A DNA stretch of 41,087 nucleotides from Myxococcales bacterium (GTDB taxonomy: Bacteria > Myxococcota_A > Polyangia > Polyangiales > Polyangiaceae), in the NCBI GenBank assembly GCA_020430845.1, contig JAGQJA010000048.1, positions 1 to 41,087 of the forward strand, written 5' to 3'. Both the position numbers and the translations under genes were made by a program. A model generated the notes under the pieces. The model ran no database searches. It saw nothing but the letters and a program-made list of their open reading frames with translations, and was not told the origin of the DNA. Positions 1 through 8,291 of the stretch are shown piece by piece (positions within the stretch are counted from its first letter, which is position 1; every line of letters starts with the position of its first letter).

Positions 1-463
1 TCGGGTTCTCGACAAAGTTTGTCTGAGGTCCGGCGCCCGGCGCGGCGAACACGGCGCACCACTTGCCGAGCGGGTCGACCGCCAGGCCCGTGTGCGGCGA
101 CTCGAGCGGATACGTCTTGAGCGTGCCGCCCTCGATGACCGAGAGGCTCGGGCGCTCGTCGGTGCCCTTGCGCCGCGGCAGCTCCCCCGCCGACAGGACG
201 AACAGGCGTTTGGTGTCGGCGGACGGCGCCGCCACGGTGACGTTCTTGCCGACGCGCACGCTCGAGCGCGACAGCTCTTGCCCCGCGCGCGCCGAGAGGA
301 GCGCGACGCGGTGGGCGCCTTCGTCGACGACGGCGACCTGATCGACGAGGCCGAACGTGCGCAGCGAGCCCGACTTGACGATGGGGGCCTCCCACTCGTC
401 GGGCCTGTCGCCGCACGCGGCGAACGTGAGCGCGAGGAGGATCGCGACGGTCTTCGATCTCAT
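1..463 (-). CDS. Putative lipoprotein, beta-propeller-like (3' end cut by window)
   Basis: The reading frame begins at an ATG and runs off the left edge, so the C-terminus is missing. About 154 codons are visible. The N-terminus is a lipoprotein signal peptide: MRSKTVAI, a hydrophobic run, then LTFAAC with Cys17 as the probable lipidated residue. The mature part has short repeated beta-rich units (for example GLVDQVAVVDEGAHRVALLSA) of the kind found in YVTN/WD40-like propellers. The start codon overlaps the stop of the upstream gene as ATGA, so the two are probably translationally coupled and function together. The substrate or partner is unknown. Near the window edge, positions 11-23 form a perfect AT-rich interrupted palindrome written in unusual codons. 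Confidence 0.75.
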   Translation of the reverse strand, partial: MRSKTVAILLALTFAACGDRPDEWEAPIVKSGSLRTFGLVDQVAVVDEGAHRVALLSARAGQELSRSSVRVGKNVTVAAPSADTKRLFVLSAGELPRRKGTDERPSLSVIEGGTLKTYPLESPHTGLAVDPLGKWCAVFAAPGAGPQTNFVENP

Positions 464-2079
464 GGCTTGCTCCCATCGACGACGCGCGCGCCGAGCTCGA
501 AGCCCGTCAGCGTTCGCGCGACGCCCGTGTCCAGATCCAAGAAGGTGATGCGCCCCTCGGGGTGCTGCTGCGCGACGAAGGCCCGCTTGGCCGCGGGCAC
601 GAGCCCCGCCGCGATGGGCGGGCTGGCGAGCGGGAAGCGCTCGACCATGAGCTGCGGGAGGCGCGCGAGGTACACGCCGTAGACCTTCTTGGTGTCGTCG
701 CGCTCGGTCACGACGGCGCGGTCGTTGGCGAGGACGACCTGGGGCGGCGGCGTCTTTCCCACGGCGACCATCGGCGCCTGCGTCGCGACGATCTTGGCCG
801 GGAGCGGCTCGGCGCCGGTGGGCACGAGGCTGAACGCGCCGGGCGATCCGTCGGGACCGTCGGTGCGATCGTGCAGGACCACCGCGTGCAGGCCGTCGGG
901 CGAAGGGAACGCGCCGAGCACGGGCGAGTAGACGCGCACCGTGCGGTACGTCGCCGGCTGCTTGGTGAGGTCCATGATGGTGAGCCGCTCGACGGGCGTG
1001 CCGTTCGAGAAGAGCAGGCCCATGGCCCCGCCGTTGGCGAGCACGACCGAGCCGATGGTCTCGCCGGTGACGGTGACCGTGGTGAACTGCGTCGGGGCCG
1101 CGAGCAGTCCCGGCACGGGGAGCACGGAGACGTCGGACTTGTCGCGGACGACGGCGACGGCGCGATCTCCGGCCGGAGACAGGTCGAGGTCGGTCACGGC
1201 GCCGGTGAGCGTCGCGTCGGCCCTGGCGCCGTCGGCGAGCGCGACGATCGTGACCGCGCTCGAGTTGTCGCGCCGGATGAGCGCGTGCGATCCGCTCGGC
1301 GTGACCGAGACGTCGCGCGAGCCCGGGTCTTCGAGCGGGTTCGACGAGACGGCGATGTTCTTCGAGACGCGCGGCGCGCTCGACAGGTCGATGATGGCGA
1401 TCCCGTCCTGCGTGATCGCGTGCGCCGTGGCGCCTTGGGCGGCGAAGCCGACCTTCACCGGGCGGTAGCCGACCGCGAGGATCGTCGAGGTGCCCGCGGC
1501 GAGATCGAGGATCGCCAGATCCTGGAAGCCCTGCTGGCGCGACGCCCCCGGCACCTTGCGCGCGTCGGTCCACGCGATCGCGTAGCGTCCGTCGGCCGAG
1601 AAGGCCCACGCGTTGGCGCCTTCGGCCGTCTTGAACGTCTTGGTCGTGATGCCCTGCGGCGTGACCTTGAGCAGCGTCGCGTCGCTCGAGAGCACGTTCG
1701 CCACGATCGTCGTGTCCTCGGCCTGACCGGGCACCGTGGCCAGGTAGGTGGGGCCGTTGCCCGCCTCGACGGTGCGGACCTCGAGGCTGCGCGCGTCGAC
1801 GAACGCGACGCGGCCGCTCTTGGGGTTCGCGATCCAGATGAAGTTGCCCGTGGCGACCGGCGCCTCCGAGTCGGGCTCGACCTCCCGCTCGGGCTCGGGC
1901 GCTCCGGGCGCGGCGGCGCCACCCGAGCTCGTGCCGTCGGCGCCGCGCTCACCCGGGGCCCCTGCGAACTCCGCGGCGGCGTCGGACGCGCCGCACGCCC
2001 CCGCGGACGCGGCCGTGAGCCCGACGCCCGCGAGCAGCAGCCAGAGCGGCCCTGGCTTCCAGTCGTGTGATCGATTCAT
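460..2079 (-). CDS. Secreted beta-propeller protein, probable lipoprotein
   Basis: This 539-residue exported protein is unrecognised beyond its fold class. I chose the ATG at 2079 because AGGAGG lies 7 nt upstream; an in-frame ATG at 2109 lacks this. The signal region has WLLLAGVGLTAASAGAC, with a possible but weak lipobox. A low-complexity Ala/Gly/Glu/Pro linker follows. From about residue 80 there are repeated blades such as IWIANPKSGRVAFVDARSLEVRTVEAG, WAFSADGRYAIAWTDA, TDLDLSPAGDRAVAVV and AFPSPDGLHAVVLHDRT, typical of YVTN/TolB-like propellers. It is the first gene of a pair with the lipoprotein at 1-463 and overlaps it by 4 nt. A surface or periplasmic binding role is inference. No catalytic motif is visible. 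Confidence 0.8.
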   Translation of the reverse strand: MNRSHDWKPGPLWLLLAGVGLTAASAGACGASDAAAEFAGAPGERGADGTSSGGAAAPGAPEPEREVEPDSEAPVATGNFIWIANPKSGRVAFVDARSLEVRTVEAGNGPTYLATVPGQAEDTTIVANVLSSDATLLKVTPQGITTKTFKTAEGANAWAFSADGRYAIAWTDARKVPGASRQQGFQDLAILDLAAGTSTILAVGYRPVKVGFAAQGATAHAITQDGIAIIDLSSAPRVSKNIAVSSNPLEDPGSRDVSVTPSGSHALIRRDNSSAVTIVALADGARADATLTGAVTDLDLSPAGDRAVAVVRDKSDVSVLPVPGLLAAPTQFTTVTVTGETIGSVVLANGGAMGLLFSNGTPVERLTIMDLTKQPATYRTVRVYSPVLGAFPSPDGLHAVVLHDRTDGPDGSPGAFSLVPTGAEPLPAKIVATQAPMVAVGKTPPPQVVLANDRAVVTERDDTKKVYGVYLARLPQLMVERFPLASPPIAAGLVPAAKRAFVAQQHPEGRITFLDLDTGVARTLTGFELGARVVDGSKP

Positions 2080-2254: not shown

Positions 2255-3271
2255 TCAGCTGCCGATCCAGACGCCGCGCTGGTTCGCCGCGAAAATTTCG
2301 CGCCGCAGCTCGGCCTCCTTGCGATCGACGTCGGCGCCCGACTCTCCGCGCCTGCGCCGGCTCTTCACGAACGCGAGCTCGACGAGCAGGAGCTGCTTCT
2401 TGCGCCGATCGCGGAACGCGGTCCAGCCACGCGAGAAGAGCACGCCCATGTTCTTCTGCCCGAGCGCAAAGTAGCTCGACACGAGGCGCAGCTCGTCGGG
2501 GTGCAAGAGGTCGCCGACCTCGTGGAACAGCTCGCGGATCACGATGCGCCGATCACGCACGACGAGCGACGCGAGCAGGACGAAGAAGACGATGTCGATG
2601 AGCCACGACACGAGGAGCATGAGGATGAGCCCGCCGTCGCCGAAGAACGTGGGCAGGCCGTTGTGCATGGCGTGCATCGCGACCGCGAAGACGAACCCGC
2701 CGAAGGGCGCGCACACCTTGACCGCCCAGCTGCGTGACTCGGTGGCGATGCCGAAGCCGAGGCCCGTGCACGCGGTGAAGGTGCAGTGCGAGAGGCCGAG
2801 GAGCACGGTGCGCAAGAAGAGCAGCACGGCGAAGCCCGCGATCCCCTCCTTGGCGAACTGGTTGGCGACGTACAGGATGTCCTCGGTGAGGGTGAAGCCG
2901 AGCCCCACGACGCCGCCGTAGATGGCGCCGTCGAGCGGGCCGTCGAGCTCACGCAGGCCGAGGGCGCTGATGAGCGCGATCGCCGCGACGCCGAAGCCCT
3001 TGAACGTCTCTTCGAAGATCGGCGCGAAGACCGTGGCGCCGACGGCGTCGAGGAACGCCGCGTCGGGGCGCGCGATCGCCTCGGTGAGGTTCTGCGCGAT
3101 CGACGAGGCCATCCCGCCGCCGACCGTGGCGAAGCAGGCGCCCCAGATGAACGCGGCCGCGATGAGCCACCACGGCTCGGGCTCGAAGCGGTCCACCCAG
3201 CGGATGAACACGAGGTAGCTCAGCACGATCGGCGTGACGAACACGACACCGAGGACGAGGCCGAGCAACAT
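2255..3271 (-). CDS. prsW: PrsW-family intramembrane metalloprotease
   Basis: This is a 338-residue polytopic membrane protein. It carries the PrsW/CPBP-like signature: EExxK at residues 87-91 (FEETFKG), FTLTED at 126-131, SHCTF with His162, and HAMHN with His200. These are the presumed metal ligands and catalytic residues. About seven hydrophobic segments span residues 1-240. The C-terminal 90 residues are charged and probably cytoplasmic. In Bacillus, PrsW makes the first cut in an anti-sigma factor; the substrate here is unknown and no sigma/anti-sigma pair is adjacent. The ATG is preceded by GGAG and, 8 nt away, by a TATCGT hexamer. The C-terminal coding region contains a 15-bp AT-rich palindrome at 2288-2302. 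The start lies 86 nt after the propeller lipoprotein gene, so it may belong to the same transcript. Confidence 0.88.
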   Translation of the reverse strand: MLLGLVLGVVFVTPIVLSYLVFIRWVDRFEPEPWWLIAAAFIWGACFATVGGGMASSIAQNLTEAIARPDAAFLDAVGATVFAPIFEETFKGFGVAAIALISALGLRELDGPLDGAIYGGVVGLGFTLTEDILYVANQFAKEGIAGFAVLLFLRTVLLGLSHCTFTACTGLGFGIATESRSWAVKVCAPFGGFVFAVAMHAMHNGLPTFFGDGGLILMLLVSWLIDIVFFVLLASLVVRDRRIVIRELFHEVGDLLHPDELRLVSSYFALGQKNMGVLFSRGWTAFRDRRKKQLLLVELAFVKSRRRRGESGADVDRKEAELRREIFAANQRGVWIGS

Positions 3272-3357: not shown

Positions 3358-4488
3358 TCACGGGCTCGCCGGGTAGTCGAGCGGCCGCGCCAACGTCTCT
3401 GTGCCGGGGGCGTACGCGGCCGACAGCGCAAAGTAGCCCTCGCCTCCCCCGAGACCCGCCGGGTGGTCCTGCTGCACGTAGAGCATGATCCCCGCCCCCA
3501 CGGGCACCATCGTGGGCGCGCGCTCCTTCTTGCCGACCGCGAACACGGGCAGCTGCTGGCGCTCGAGCGGGCCGCTCTCGCCGTAGCGCCCGGCGAAGCC
3601 GATCACGGTCGCGCCCGCGAGCGACTCTCCCGTGTAGAGTACACGTATGTGCAGGCGCCCCGCCGGCGTCGTGCGCACAGAGACCTCGGGGTCGGACACG
3701 CGGCCCGTGTCGAAGGGCCCCTTCTCGTTGGGGAGGAGCTCCGACGGGAGCGCCGGACGGGACGGCGCGAGCACGGGCTCGATCTCGGGCGTGCTCGGGT
3801 CGGGATCGAGGCGGCGGAAGGCCAGGCCGTCGGCGCTCTCGGCCTCGAAGATCGACGTGCCCGCGGCGTAGAGCATCCGGAAGCGCCCGTCGGGGAGCCG
3901 ATACACAGAGGGGGCGCGCGGCGCGGTGGTCTCGGCGCCCGACGGCGCGACCGCGGCGAGCACCGGCGCGGGCAGCTTGGAGAACGTGACGCCGTCGACG
4001 GATCGCGCGAGCCCGATGCCGCCCGCGGCCGCGTAGTAGAGCCAGATCTCGCCGCCCACCGCGAGCGCCGCGGGGCCCGAGAGCGCGCCGCCCTCCCACG
4101 GTAGGTCGGCCGAGAGCACGCGCGCGGGGCTCCGCCCGGTGTGACCCGTCGCGCCGAAGAACGCCCGCCCGTCGAGCGCACGCGAGCGCACGATCCCGTC
4201 CGCGCCCGCCGCGTCGCGCGCCACGGCGTAGAGCACCACAGAGGGCTCGGCCTCACCCGCGACGCGGATCGAGATGGCCGACGGCTCTCGGTACTCGGCG
4301 CGCTCGTCGTCGAGCACGAACGGCGCGACGCCGGGCACCTCGTCGCCGGCGAGCTTGCGGAACGGCCCCACGCCGGAGCTCGGCAGGTCGCGGTCCCCCT
4401 CGCCTTCGGCCCCTGTGGTCGCGCACGCATAGATGCATATGCATGCAGATGCACCGAGCAGCGCCTGGGCGAGCGCCCGCCGCGTCAC
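3358..4488 (-). CDS. Lipoprotein with five-bladed propeller-like (GH43/GH32-type) fold
   Basis: This 376-residue protein starts at a GTG that overlaps the stop of the upstream FadL-like gene (GTGA). An upstream-extended reading in the same frame is antisense-like arginine-rich noise. The N-terminus MTRRALAQALLGASACICIYAC is a lipoprotein signal, with Cys22 as the likely acylation site. The body repeats units such as EIWLYYAAAGGIGLARSVDG, FRMLYAAGTSIFEAESADG and RLHIRVLYTGES, resembling the glycoside-hydrolase 43/32/130 propeller. I cannot pick out a catalytic Asp/Glu set, so it may be a non-enzymatic binding lipoprotein. It is the third gene of a coupled set with two FadL-like barrels. Two AT-rich palindromes (3631-3645 and 4433-4444) sit in its coding sequence and use rare codons. 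Confidence 0.75.
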   Translation of the reverse strand: MTRRALAQALLGASACICIYACATTGAEGEGDRDLPSSGVGPFRKLAGDEVPGVAPFVLDDERAEYREPSAISIRVAGEAEPSVVLYAVARDAAGADGIVRSRALDGRAFFGATGHTGRSPARVLSADLPWEGGALSGPAALAVGGEIWLYYAAAGGIGLARSVDGVTFSKLPAPVLAAVAPSGAETTAPRAPSVYRLPDGRFRMLYAAGTSIFEAESADGLAFRRLDPDPSTPEIEPVLAPSRPALPSELLPNEKGPFDTGRVSDPEVSVRTTPAGRLHIRVLYTGESLAGATVIGFAGRYGESGPLERQQLPVFAVGKKERAPTMVPVGAGIMLYVQQDHPAGLGGGEGYFALSAAYAPGTETLARPLDYPASP

Positions 4489-5852
4489 TTGGCCCTCCCC
4501 GGCGGGTCGAACACGACGCCGAGCTGCAGGCCGAACGCGATGAAGCGCCCGCCGGCCGTGTAGTCGCCGACCAGGTCGGCCGCGCTGGTCTTGCGCGTCG
4601 TGGAGGTGACGAGCTGGCCGAGCTGGCCGTGCGCGTCGAGCGTGACCGTGCCTGGGAGCTCGCGCGCGAGATCGCGCAGGGCCACGCCCGCCCCGAGCGA
4701 GACGGTGTGCCGACTGCGATCGATGTAGTTGGTGAGGCCCGACTGCGCCTCGATGGGGCTGACGAAGATCTCGTAGCCGCCGCGCGCGAACACGTCGGCG
4801 GTGCGGGCGTGCACGGCGCGCCACTCGACACCGAAGCGAGGGACGAGCCGATCGCGCATCCTGAGCGGCTCGACGCGCGTCGGCGCGGGCACCTCCGGCG
4901 GCGTCACGGTGGGCGGCCAGCCGCCGTCCGGCGGGGGGATGTCGAGCGCGACGTCGAGCCGCGCGACCGGGGGCACGTACGCGCTCCACTGGATCCACGT
5001 GGCGTCGAACGTCGTCGTCACGTCGCGGTGGGGCTTCCACTCGCCGCCGAGCACGATCTGCTGGGGCAAGAAGTTGTTGACGCTGCTCGTCTCGAGCACG
5101 AAGAGCGCGGTCGTGAGGTCGGAGATGCTCCCCGCGAGGCGCGCGGAGAGGTCGAGCCCGAGCTGGAACTCGCCCCGGTAGACCGCGGCGAGCGCGGCGC
5201 TGTCGGAGAGCGCGACACGCACGCCCGCGTGGGGGTAGCGGATCGCGGTCAGGTCCGCGTCGACCTCGTGGCGCAGCTCGGAGTCGTCTGCACGAAAGAC
5301 GTTGGCGCGGCCGGTGATGTCGAGGCGGCCGCGCGTCGACGACATGAACGAGAGCCCGCCGCCGATCTGGAGCCACGGCACCGGCTCGATGGCGAGGCAC
5401 GCCGCGAGGAAGAGGCGTTGGTTTCGGTTGTCGTACATCTCCCAGCGCGGCTGCTCCTGGCGGAGCGCTCGGACGCGCGAGATGCGGTCGTCGGGCAGGT
5501 GCAGCGCGATGCCGAAGGCGAACGGCATCCCGAAGAGCGTGCCGGGCACCACGAGCCCGCCGTTGAGACCTTTGACCGGGTCGACCCCGGTGTCGGCCCC
5601 GTTGATCTGCATGTGGTGATCGGCGCGAAAGTATCCGATGGAGAGCTCGAGGCCGCGCGAGCGCGCGAGCGCCGCGGGGTTGTAGTAGGTCGCGGCGAAC
5701 CCGCGGGTGGTGGCCGAGGCGGCTCCGCCCATGGCCGTCTCGCGAGAGCCGAAGCCATACGTGTCGGGCGGGTTGGCCTGCGCGGCGCCTGCCGAGAGCG
5801 AGGCGGCGCACGCGGCGGCAGCAGCGAGGGAGAGCGAGCGCGCGCGTGCCAT
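4485..5852 (-). CDS. FadL/OmpP1-family outer-membrane protein (second copy)
   Basis: This is a 455-residue protein with an N-terminal signal peptide (MARARSLSLAAAAACAAS, cleavage near AQANPPD). The mature start shows the OmpP1/FadL hallmark GFGSRETAMGGAASAT followed by FAATYYNPAALA. The rest alternates short amphipathic strands, as expected of a 14-strand barrel for hydrophobic compounds. The family imports long-chain fatty acids or aromatic hydrocarbons; the substrate here is unknown. The ATG overlaps the stop of the paralogous upstream gene (TGATG), and its own stop overlaps the GTG of the propeller lipoprotein. The three genes are therefore probably made together. Confidence 0.85.
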   Translation of the reverse strand: MARARSLSLAAAAACAASLSAGAAQANPPDTYGFGSRETAMGGAASATTRGFAATYYNPAALARSRGLELSIGYFRADHHMQINGADTGVDPVKGLNGGLVVPGTLFGMPFAFGIALHLPDDRISRVRALRQEQPRWEMYDNRNQRLFLAACLAIEPVPWLQIGGGLSFMSSTRGRLDITGRANVFRADDSELRHEVDADLTAIRYPHAGVRVALSDSAALAAVYRGEFQLGLDLSARLAGSISDLTTALFVLETSSVNNFLPQQIVLGGEWKPHRDVTTTFDATWIQWSAYVPPVARLDVALDIPPPDGGWPPTVTPPEVPAPTRVEPLRMRDRLVPRFGVEWRAVHARTADVFARGGYEIFVSPIEAQSGLTNYIDRSRHTVSLGAGVALRDLARELPGTVTLDAHGQLGQLVTSTTRKTSAADLVGDYTAGGRFIAFGLQLGVVFDPPGRAK

Positions 5853-7183
5853 CAGAAGCTCACCCCCGCGAGCGCGCCGAAGACGAGCACCTGCCCCGAG
5901 ATCTGCGCCGGGGCGAACGACGCGTCTGTGGAGCCGATGTCGCGCCCGACGAGGCTCTGGACCTGGGTGAAGATGTCGAACGTGACGGGGGGCAGCGGAC
6001 GCTTGCCTGCGAGGCCCGCCCCGAAGGTCGCGGCCACGCGCGCCGCGTCGAAGTAGCGCGTGGGCACGGTGCTCACCCCGCGCGACGCGCCGTCGTAGGC
6101 CTGCGACACGGGCAGCTCGGACGGGACCGGCGACGTCTCGAAGAAGGCGCCCGCGCGGAGCGCGAGGTCGAGCGACGGCGTGACCGTCACGTGCTGCTCG
6201 GCCCCCACGCGCACGCTCACGACGTCACGGAACGCGATCTTCGGCGGAGAGAGCCCGCAGTCGGTGCCGCCGTCGCTGCAGAGCACGGTCGGCTCGAGCG
6301 GACCGGGGTAGTCGCCCCAGCGCTTGTAGACGGCGCCGATCGCGATCGTATTACCTTTCCGTACACGCGCGACCTCGGTCACGATCTGCGCGGGATCGTA
6401 CTGGGCGAGGCCCGCGATGTTGAACACGGGGATGGCGATCGAGCTGAGCTTGGAGCCGTCGACGAGCACGGCGAAGCGCGCGTCGAGCTTGCCGCGGAAC
6501 GAGAGGCCGAGGCGGTACGTGGCGTCGCCCCCGCTCGGCAGGTCGTACGAGGCGCCGATGGCGGGAGCATAGGTCGCGACGAGCTGGTCCTCGACGCGCG
6601 TCCCGACGCGGCCGGTCGCGTCGGTCGCCGCGACGACGGTGCCGACGATCTCGGCGAGCGCGGCGAACCCCACGCCGAGCCGCAGACCGTAGCCCAGGTT
6701 CGCGCCGAGACCTGCGCGGAGCGTGACCGACTGCGCGCGATCGCCGAGCACGACGAACTGCGGGCGCTCGGGGTAGAGCGCGCGGCCCCGAACGATGACG
6801 TCGGACGGCGTGTAGAACGCGAGGCCCAGCCCCACGCGGTCTCGGAGCTTTCCGCCGAGCGGAAGCGGCAGATCTGCGCCGATGAAGAACCCGCGCGCGC
6901 GCTCGGTGCTCAGGCGCCCGGGCAGCCCCGGCCCCGCCGCGTCGAGGCGGAACGTCGCGCCGAGCATGCCGAGCGTGAGCTTGCTCTTCATGCGCGCGCC
7001 GAGGAGCGCGGGGTTCGCGTACGCGGCCTCGAAGCCGCGCGCGTGGGCCGCGCCGGTGGCGCCCATCGCGCTCGAGCGCCCGCCGTAGCCGAAGAGGTCC
7101 TCCGGCGACGCCGACGCCGACCCCGCGGCGCACGTGAGCGCGAGCCCCACGCACGCGCCGATCGTCCGCTCCTGCCACCCCAT
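5852..7183 (-). CDS. FadL/OmpP1-family outer-membrane protein (first copy)
   Basis: This 443-residue barrel protein is paralogous to the next gene. The ATG at 7183 gives a signal peptide, MGWQERTIGACVGLALTCAAGSASAS; an in-frame extension to 7327 overlaps the rlmN-like gene and looks non-coding. The mature part begins with DLFGYGGRSSAMGATGAAHARGF and AAYANPALLG, the same FadL pattern as its neighbour. A Cys pair occurs near GTDCGL. It is the first gene of a coupled set (this, the second FadL-like gene, the propeller lipoprotein). Substrate unknown; a channel for hydrophobic molecules is inferred from the family. Confidence 0.83.
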   Translation of the reverse strand: MGWQERTIGACVGLALTCAAGSASASPEDLFGYGGRSSAMGATGAAHARGFEAAYANPALLGARMKSKLTLGMLGATFRLDAAGPGLPGRLSTERARGFFIGADLPLPLGGKLRDRVGLGLAFYTPSDVIVRGRALYPERPQFVVLGDRAQSVTLRAGLGANLGYGLRLGVGFAALAEIVGTVVAATDATGRVGTRVEDQLVATYAPAIGASYDLPSGGDATYRLGLSFRGKLDARFAVLVDGSKLSSIAIPVFNIAGLAQYDPAQIVTEVARVRKGNTIAIGAVYKRWGDYPGPLEPTVLCSDGGTDCGLSPPKIAFRDVVSVRVGAEQHVTVTPSLDLALRAGAFFETSPVPSELPVSQAYDGASRGVSTVPTRYFDAARVAATFGAGLAGKRPLPPVTFDIFTQVQSLVGRDIGSTDASFAPAQISGQVLVFGALAGVSF

Positions 7184-7226: not shown

Positions 7227-8291
7227 CTACCGGGCTTGGCCGGCGAGCTGCCCGCAGGCCGCCTGCACGTCGGCGCCGCCGCTGTACCGCCGGTGGCTCG
7301 CGACGCCGGCGGCCGAGAGCGCGTCACGAAAGCGGGCTTCGGCGTCGGGCGCGCTGCGCGAGAACGGATCGTCGTGGCCGAGGCTGTTGTACGGGATGAG
7401 GCTCAGCCGGGGCGAGTGCCCCGCGCGCTGACGGAAGTCGTCGACGAGGCGCGCGAGCGCGAGCGCGTCCTCGGGCCCGTCGTTGACGCCCGCGAGCAGC
7501 GTGTAAGCCCACATGGGTGACTGCGCCGTGGCGCGCGCGTGCTCGACGCACGCCTCGAGGACGGCGGACGTGTCGTGAGAGGCGTCGATGGGCATGAGCG
7601 AGCGGCGTCGGCCGGGGCGCGCGCTCCCGATCGACCACCCGAGCCGCACGTTGGGCGCCTCGACGGCGAGGCGGCGGATGCCCGACGGGAGCCCGGCCGT
7701 GCAGACCGTGACGTTGCGCGCGTCGATCGCGAGCGCGCTCGGGTCGGTGAGCACCCGGATGGCCGCGATGACCCGGTCGGCGTTGGCGAGCGGCTCGCCC
7801 ATGCCTTGGAACACGACGCCGTGCACGCGACCGATCCCGCGCGCGCGCAGCCCCCGACGCACGACGCGCACCTGCTCGACGATCTCCCAGACCTCGAGGT
7901 TGCGCGACAGCCCCAGCCGCCCCGTGGCGCAGAACGCGCACGCGAGCGCGCACCCCACCTGCGAGCTGACGCACACCGAGAAGCGCCCCGCCCGCTCGAG
8001 CGGGATACGCACGGCCTCGACGACGTGACCGTCCGGCGTCCGGAGGGCGTACTTCACGAACGGATCCAGCTCGCTCGACGCTTCGGCCGTCACCTCGAGC
8101 GCGGGGACCACGCCTCGGCGCACGACGGCCTCACGTGCGAGGCGGCGGATGCCGGACGACGGCGTCCCAGGGTCCTCGTCGCGGTGCACCTGGGCCACGA
8201 TCCGCCGTGCGTCGGCGAGCGTCGCCTCGGGGACGCTCTCGGCGAGCTGCCCGGGCGTCACGGCCTGGAGGTAGATCGGGGTTTGTGACAC
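7227..8291 (-). CDS. RlmN/Cfr-family radical SAM methyltransferase-like protein
   Basis: This is a 354-residue protein that starts at GTG. It has the radical SAM cluster motif CALACAFC (Cys114, Cys118, Cys121) preceded by CVSSQVG with Cys107, and GMGEPLAN. The late CGQLAG has the C-terminal Cys at about residue 346 that forms the protein-RNA intermediate in RlmN. RlmN methylates C2 of A2503 in 23S rRNA and of A37 in some tRNAs. Two central blocks differ from canonical RlmN: VTVCTAGL where VT(L/V)STSG is usual, and LGWSIGSARPG where LAISLHA is usual. A paralogue with a different RNA target is possible. It lies 43 nt upstream of the FadL-like genes and is divergent from tatB. Confidence 0.82.
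   Translation of the reverse strand: MSQTPIYLQAVTPGQLAESVPEATLADARRIVAQVHRDEDPGTPSSGIRRLAREAVVRRGVVPALEVTAEASSELDPFVKYALRTPDGHVVEAVRIPLERAGRFSVCVSSQVGCALACAFCATGRLGLSRNLEVWEIVEQVRVVRRGLRARGIGRVHGVVFQGMGEPLANADRVIAAIRVLTDPSALAIDARNVTVCTAGLPSGIRRLAVEAPNVRLGWSIGSARPGRRRSLMPIDASHDTSAVLEACVEHARATAQSPMWAYTLLAGVNDGPEDALALARLVDDFRQRAGHSPRLSLIPYNSLGHDDPFSRSAPDAEARFRDALSAAGVASHRRYSGGADVQAACGQLAGQAR

Follow-up and report, generated by a model that had tools for sequence, protein, structure and literature searches.

Outer-membrane channels of the FadL family are mostly regarded as proteins that act singly and release their cargo laterally into the membrane, and TodX and TbuX are single channels of this kind. 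FadL works alone in Escherichia coli, and the two products of the Marinobacter alkane uptake operon, AupA and AupB, interact with each other, AupB being an inner-membrane protein (PMC5989066; papers are cited by PubMed Central (PMC) identifier). BamG, a barrel of FadL fold, binds the lipoprotein BamH via extracellular loops, and in Bacteroides thetaiotaomicron BamG2 and BamH2 are encoded in a putative operon (PMC12578637; see also PMC12611786). In Myxococcus xanthus, a fadL mutant (MXAN7040) did not incorporate labelled palmitate (PMC4048283), and the putative lipoprotein MXAN7039 and the FadL protein MXAN7040 both appear in an outer-membrane proteomics table, with 34 and 13 peptides, respectively (PMC3222651). 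No paper describing a paired FadL and propeller lipoprotein operon in Myxococcota was found by title or start of abstract, within a partial coverage of the literature. The locus analysed here encodes two FadL-family barrels, BarA and BarB, and a propeller lipoprotein, and lies in a stretch of 41,087 nucleotides (nt) from a Myxococcales bacterium (assembly GCA_020430845.1, contig JAGQJA010000048.1, positions 1 to 41,087), hereafter the window, which belongs to an 8.56-Mb draft genome. Tentatively, and with somewhat less than even confidence, it is read as a vertically inherited outer-membrane cassette that would take up hydrophobic or amphipathic compounds through two FadL barrels of the transporter type, accompanied by a lipoprotein that is probably non-catalytic.

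All three genes lie on the minus strand, in the order barA, barB, lipoprotein gene. barA (5852..7183, ATG at 7183, stop ending at 5852) and barB (4485..5852, ATG at 5852, stop ending at 4485) encode FadL-family outer-membrane barrels of 443 and 455 amino acids (aa), each with a Sec signal peptide, and the third gene (3358..4488, GTG at 4488, stop ending at 3358) encodes a lipoprotein of 376 aa with a predicted five-bladed propeller of the glycoside hydrolase (GH) 130/GH43 type. The barA/barB overlap is 1 nt (TGATG), and the overlap of barB with the lipoprotein gene is 4 nt (GTGA). A sequence-only reading made earlier had given these coordinates, overlaps and gene kinds, and all are confirmed by the gene calls. 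Since the three genes overlap, they are probably translationally coupled. A promoter and terminator scan returned 0 promoter-like and 2 terminator-like stretches, the latter against 1.2 in shuffled sequences.

Conservation of the set was assessed in 289 genomes of the class at E ≤ 0.001, with matches to the lipoprotein in 104, to BarB in 180 and to BarA in 155, the weak barrel matches including other FadLs. The 104 lipoprotein-positive genomes (the window's included) were represented by 79 full loci and 10 short loci, and 14 were left out. The 79 full loci (L042–L101 and L122–L140, one per genome) were chosen on the lipoprotein match; L068 is a barrel contig from a genome with the lipoprotein on another contig, and 78 of the 79 contain the lipoprotein gene. 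All three genes are present in a single order and on one strand in 75 of the 79. Of the 76 loci with both barrel genes, 75 have barA and barB on the same strand and at most 150 nt apart, and the two overlap in 63 of these 75 (by exactly 1 nt in 29 and exactly 4 nt in 28); barB and the lipoprotein gene lie at most 160 nt apart in 70 of the 76 loci with both, overlapping in 51 of the 70, mostly by 1 or 4 nt; start codons in the relatives were set by a simple rule, and single overlap values may be off. Within the ten short loci (L021–L025, L027, L032, L036, L040 and L041), the lipoprotein gene was at most 41 nt from barB in all ten, and among 20 loci with tandem barrels but without a lipoprotein in the first search, a profile found it in place in 15.

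Wider spacing was also observed: barB is 1.75–2.35 kb away from the lipoprotein gene in four loci and 1.26 kb away in one, and barA is 2.4 kb away from barB in one; the 550-nt gap in L101 arises because its lipoprotein gene was read as two pieces. Three genomes listed under the same genus (G061, G111 and G220, 97–100% complete) had no match to any of the three genes in single-sequence searches, and G061 and G111 gave weak matches only, in profile searches. The gene set is common and old, and because separated, spaced and missing cases exist, it is not indispensable. As a separate observation, the 1.75–2.35-kb inserts, all from family f4 (L061, L063, L074 and L081), hold an opposite-strand gene and a same-strand reading frame of 64–267 aa, the one in L061 having no Pfam match at E ≤ 0.01, and in L049 barB is separated from the lipoprotein gene by a reading frame of 263 aa (about 0.8 kb).

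In a 282-genome sample of the phylum, the lipoprotein profile matched 149 genomes and the BarB profile 236, many of these matches being generic propellers and FadLs. Among the matches listed, 16 genomes that lie outside the class had a BarB score above 450 bits; A and B were adjacent in 16/16 of them, and a lipoprotein match followed directly after B in 15/16. Several of these outside-class lipoprotein matches were truncated at contig ends or interrupted by frame breaks, and that of L156 was weak (33 bits). Conserved co-occurrence of the three genes, which the sequence-only reading had proposed as a check, was therefore found in 75/79 loci in the class and 15/16 genomes outside it, and reaches far beyond close relatives. 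In one genome of the class (G018), with its main set on contig C12, a second place was seen (C72:209714-213485) where two FadL-like matches precede a partial, same-strand propeller match.

For alignments and trees, 45 BarA and 45 BarB sequences were used (the window and 44 loci picked for diversity), together with 44 lipoproteins (the window and 43 loci, L141 having none). A tree of the 90 barrels (45 A, 45 B; class only, no outgroup, root not placed) separates A from B along a single branch, with 100/100 support, and this split is present in 100% of 200 bootstrap trees. An earlier tree, in which the outgroup was poor (six further FadL-like regions from the genome of the window, two of them partial and one translated on the wrong strand), gave the same split, with support of 98 for B and 26 for A. 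Because A and B form the two sides of one fully supported branch, the duplication is single and older than the sampled divergence, with both copies kept; a recent tandem duplication of a FadL gene was rejected on the 90-barrel tree. Tree distances over 44 loci were correlated at 0.891 for A and B, 0.816 for A and the lipoprotein, and 0.845 for B and the lipoprotein, values that include shared species history. As far as their sequences record it, the pattern across these loci shows A, B and the lipoprotein to be co-inherited, and since a large group of myxobacteria-like bacteria has passed the set on as a whole, the three products probably function together.

As judged by sequence, barA and barB are distant paralogues of the FadL family, in agreement with the sequence-only reading of two paralogous OmpP1/FadL genes. 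Direct comparison gave 27% identity (E = 5e-26), and profile–profile comparison gave a probability of 100 over 412 columns with 26% identity. barB passes the Pfam Toluene_X cut-off (39.4 versus 29.7 bits); barA taken alone is under it (19.2 versus 29.7 bits), and 43/45 barA members match Toluene_X at E ≤ 0.01. Solved relatives of both barrel profiles are E. coli FadL, 3dwo (a Pseudomonas aeruginosa FadL homologue), TodX, TbuX and CymD, with the barA profile matching 3dwo at 2.3e-17 and E. coli FadL at about 1e-12. Among NCBIfam models matched by barB members at E ≤ 0.001, AupA was matched most (44/45), the PorV family was matched by 38/45 and BamG by 21/45, and window barB does not reach the AupA cut-off (36.1 versus 840 bits). 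barB, the only barrel modelled, gave a low-confidence model (mean predicted local distance difference test score (pLDDT) 62.2, predicted template modelling score (pTM) 0.62), which matched E. coli FadL with a Z of 32.1 and a root-mean-square deviation (rmsd) of 5.0 over 351 residues.

To compare the N-terminal tails, the mature start was taken after the signal-peptide AxA, which is present in AxA-like form in 45/45 barA and 45/45 barB members. The hatch motif Asn-Pro-Ala (NPA), assigned by conservation and tail length, is N57-P58-A59 in barA (7007..7015, minus strand) and N58-P59-A60 in barB (5673..5681, minus strand), its N being mature position 32 in both. Across the alignments, the N column is mature residue 32 in 45/45 BarA and 44/45 BarB (89/90) and residue 33 in the remaining one, with N itself in all 45 barB and 96% of barA members. 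The NPA of E. coli FadL is at N33 and P34, as given in titles of mutant structures, including a delta-NPA mutant, and FadL residue 1 aligns with residue 27 of the barB model, which is its predicted mature start. BamG is distinguished from transport FadLs by a conserved stretch of about 10–12 additional N-terminal residues, which threads the lateral opening (PMC12578637, PMC12611786). A BamG-type extended tail was absent here, the tail having FadL length within one residue in 90/90 barrels. With FadL-length tails and the NPA position in both barrels, both therefore carry a canonical FadL tail, which favours transport without proving it. Membership of BamG was rejected on tail length and on the NCBIfam cut-off (window barB 12.5 and barA 10 versus 250 bits). 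For the putative hydrophobic-compound channel of the sequence-only reading, the family, the fold and the NPA-bearing tail of FadL length give indirect support.

The lipoprotein was modelled with AlphaFold from 6 sequences (mean pLDDT 79.4, pTM 0.82), giving five strand groups with the blades beginning at residue 66, and the model matched GH130, GH43 and GH117 propellers with Z up to 25.7 (4onz, rmsd 2.7, 269 residues, 18% identity). Family matches of the window lipoprotein alone were uninformative, and became informative once a 44-member profile had been built, the nearest solved sequences being GH130 mannoside phosphorylases (best 4.9e-15). Together with an anchor cysteine conserved in 44/44 aligned members, this model sustains the five-bladed-propeller lipoprotein of the sequence-only reading. 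The three best solved relatives carry the EDPR motif, whose Asp we take to be catalytic in GH130; at this position the 44 members have A in 22, S in 10, R in 6, G in 2, Q in 2, H in 1 and D in 1. The sole acidic residue conserved in at least 80% of members is E132 (40/44), within a WE motif shared with GH130. The propeller lipoprotein is thus probably non-catalytic, and may act in ligand binding or docking. A recoded TGA in the lipoprotein gene was also considered, as some matches contain an in-frame TGA, and was rejected: L050, the one locus checked closely, has 361 codons without an inner stop, its match running as far as the regular stop codon of the gene. The lipoprotein gene is split into two matches or frames in L049, L057 and L101, which may reflect decay, repeats or sequence error.

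The predicted lipid-anchor cysteine (C22, codon at 4423..4425, minus strand) is preceded by a hydrophobic stretch, and the lipobox of the window copy (IYA-C) is not canonical. Residue +2 is G in 20, A in 16 and S in 8 of the 44 members and never K, Ala occurs at +7 in 5/44, and at least two acidic residues occur at +2 to +7 in 2/44. Inner-membrane lipoproteins of M. xanthus mostly have Lys at +2, and Ala at +7 is the matrix-export residue (PMC3222651). Since +2 is never K, the signal is not the inner-membrane one reported for M. xanthus, and by exclusion of that signal we infer that the lipoprotein would be sorted to the outer membrane. The linker from anchor to propeller (LPSSGVGPFRKL, 4351..4386, minus strand) is conserved as well as the best propeller positions (P36 95%, G41 98%, P42 89%), and is a candidate docking segment.

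Compared with the described systems, the set resembles FadL, TodX and TbuX in its Toluene_X family, fold, NPA motif and N-terminal tail length, but has two anciently diverged, paired paralogues and a lipoprotein, whereas FadL acts alone. It shares with AupA–AupB a FadL-family barrel encoded in an operon with a partner, AupA being the NCBIfam model matched by most barB members, but the Marinobacter system has one barrel and an inner-membrane partner, and window barB falls far below the AupA cut-off. BamG–BamH and PorV of type 9 secretion likewise involve a FadL-fold barrel, with BamG holding a lipoprotein partner; BamG, however, is a member of the Bacteroidota β-barrel assembly machinery (BAM) complex with its extended tail through the lateral opening, whereas the cassette barrels have a tail of FadL length. 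The GH130 phosphorylases and mannosidases (GH43 superfold) share the five-bladed propeller, are nearest among solved sequences and rank among the nearest folds, but the cassette protein is predicted to be lipid-anchored behind a conserved linker and has lost the EDPR Asp in 43/44 members. MXAN7039 and MXAN7040, whose locus numbers are adjacent, resemble the set by annotation, as putative lipoprotein and FadL, respectively; one FadL is known at that place in M. xanthus versus two in the cassette.

In an uptake cassette, BarA and BarB would be FadL channels of the transporter type whose divergence predates that of the sampled class members and which were kept as a pair, acting as a heteromeric pair or as two channels in one pathway. 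The lipoprotein would be lipidated at C22 and sorted to the outer membrane with a degenerate GH130-like propeller, which is most likely no GH130 enzyme and may bind a sugar-bearing ligand or headgroup, or dock on the barrels via the LPxxGxGPFR linker. Complex formation, the direction of uptake and the substrate class are points that we infer. A bolder version, which we consider rather doubtful, is a heteromeric BarA–BarB channel capped by a lipid-anchored pseudo-glycosidase propeller, which would recognise the polar head of an amphiphile and feed the two lateral openings, as a phylum-wide, three-part uptake of glycolipids or similar compounds in Myxococcota.

Several points weigh against an uptake cassette. 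Neighbour clusters scanned by their representatives (Tat, RlmN-like, PrsW, an RNase Z-like pair and others) gave no clear hint of lipid metabolism. In M. xanthus, the FadL-like MXAN_7040 and MXAN_6116 were down-regulated with prey (PMC9548883). In five of the 20 barrel-picked loci the lipoprotein was not found even by profile, and in one genome (L140/L141) about 0.57 Mb separates it from the barrels; an adjacent lipoprotein gene is thus no strict requirement for the barrels. A loose operon, in which two FadL channels of different specificity are co-expressed with an unrelated lipoprotein without forming a complex, would accommodate a lipoprotein that can be missing or relocated as well as the 1.3–2.3 kb found between barB and the lipoprotein gene in some loci, and fits with E. 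coli FadL acting alone (PMC5989066). It is held to be rather unlikely, given the one order in 75/79 loci, the frequent 1- and 4-nt overlaps and the retention of both paralogues across the sampled families; the second place on C72 in G018, with two FadL-like matches and a partial propeller, also speaks against it and suggests that the three genes move as a module.

FadL-fold proteins may also be structural, as BamG, or secretion-related, as PorV, and the two barrels could be a myxobacterial counterpart of BamG–BamH or PorV, holding a surface lipoprotein over another outer-membrane machine. Consistent with this, BamG binds its own lipoprotein partner from a putative operon, the barB model, itself of low confidence (mean pLDDT 62), also reaches Z values of up to 29.7 against chains of the BAM complex, presumably BamG, and of 25.8 against one chain of the type 9 translocon, many barB members match the NCBIfam PorV and BamG models, and retention across the phylum fits a housekeeping role. 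These BAM and type 9 chains fit the barB model nearly as well as FadL does, and therefore the fold alone cannot separate transport from structure. The structural explanation is nevertheless considered unlikely, as the N-terminal extension that is the hallmark of BamG is missing from all 90 barrels, window barB falls far below the BamG cut-off, and the cassette was not found by single-sequence search in the near-complete G061, G111 and G220, unlike an essential part of BAM. An active glycosidase or phosphorylase that trims a surface glycolipid or polysaccharide and passes the product to the FadL channels would be suggested by the GH130/GH43 superfamily fold and by matches at E ≤ 0.01 of 15/44 members to a β-1,2-mannobiose phosphorylase model and of 8/44 to a β-1,2-mannosidase model. 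The window lipoprotein, however, reaches 14.1 bits versus a cut-off of 450, the EDPR Asp is replaced by A, S, R, G, Q or H in 43/44 members, and E132 of the shared WE motif is the sole acidic residue with high conservation, which together make an active GH130 enzyme disfavoured and this explanation quite improbable.

If the uptake cassette is correct, FadL-type transport is its known part, and the pairing of a second barrel and a lipoprotein with such transport is the new part. That two FadL barrels and a lipoprotein of their own have stayed together from a time before the sampled class diverged suggests that FadL transport can take a cooperative form. The cassette offers a ready-made co-expression set for structural work and is a candidate lipid-uptake route in such bacteria; for M. 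xanthus, the down-regulation of FadL-like genes on prey was taken to mean that another, unknown uptake process must operate (PMC9548883). If the set is structural instead, it would extend the BamG/PorV theme to Myxococcota.

Neighbouring genes were taken as the first three on either side of the set (a first gene was present downstream in 95 loci and upstream in 96), with clusters named from their representatives. In the window, a gene for a PrsW-family intramembrane protease (2255..3271, minus strand) lies 86 nt downstream, and a gene for an RlmN-like methyltransferase (7227..8291, minus strand; below NCBIfam cut-offs) lies 43 nt upstream as a syntenic neighbour. PrsW was found near the set in 21 loci, RlmN-like genes in 21 (on either strand) and twin-arginine translocation (Tat) genes in 33; a PrsW profile run over all loci then sampled gave 23 matches. 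The sequence-only reading had placed PrsW in the system with a "perhaps"; the protease was rejected as part of the unit, since the 21 loci include none known outside the window's own family, and it is better described as a family-level neighbour. Other neighbours included a D-Tyr-tRNA deacylase and a kinase, with no clear functional link, and the neighbouring genes look like a reflection of old synteny rather than of function.

Downstream of PrsW, the window encodes a further lipoprotein-like protein of 539 aa (460..2079, minus strand) with a signal peptide ending AGAC, which gave sub-threshold propeller matches only and had profile matches in L122, L124, L125, L127 and L134 only. In 17 loci from distant families of the class (L059, L077, L082, L083, L085–L090, L092, L110, L111, L114–L116 and L121), the lipoprotein gene is followed on the same strand by a pair of genes of RNase Z-like metallo-β-lactamase fold.

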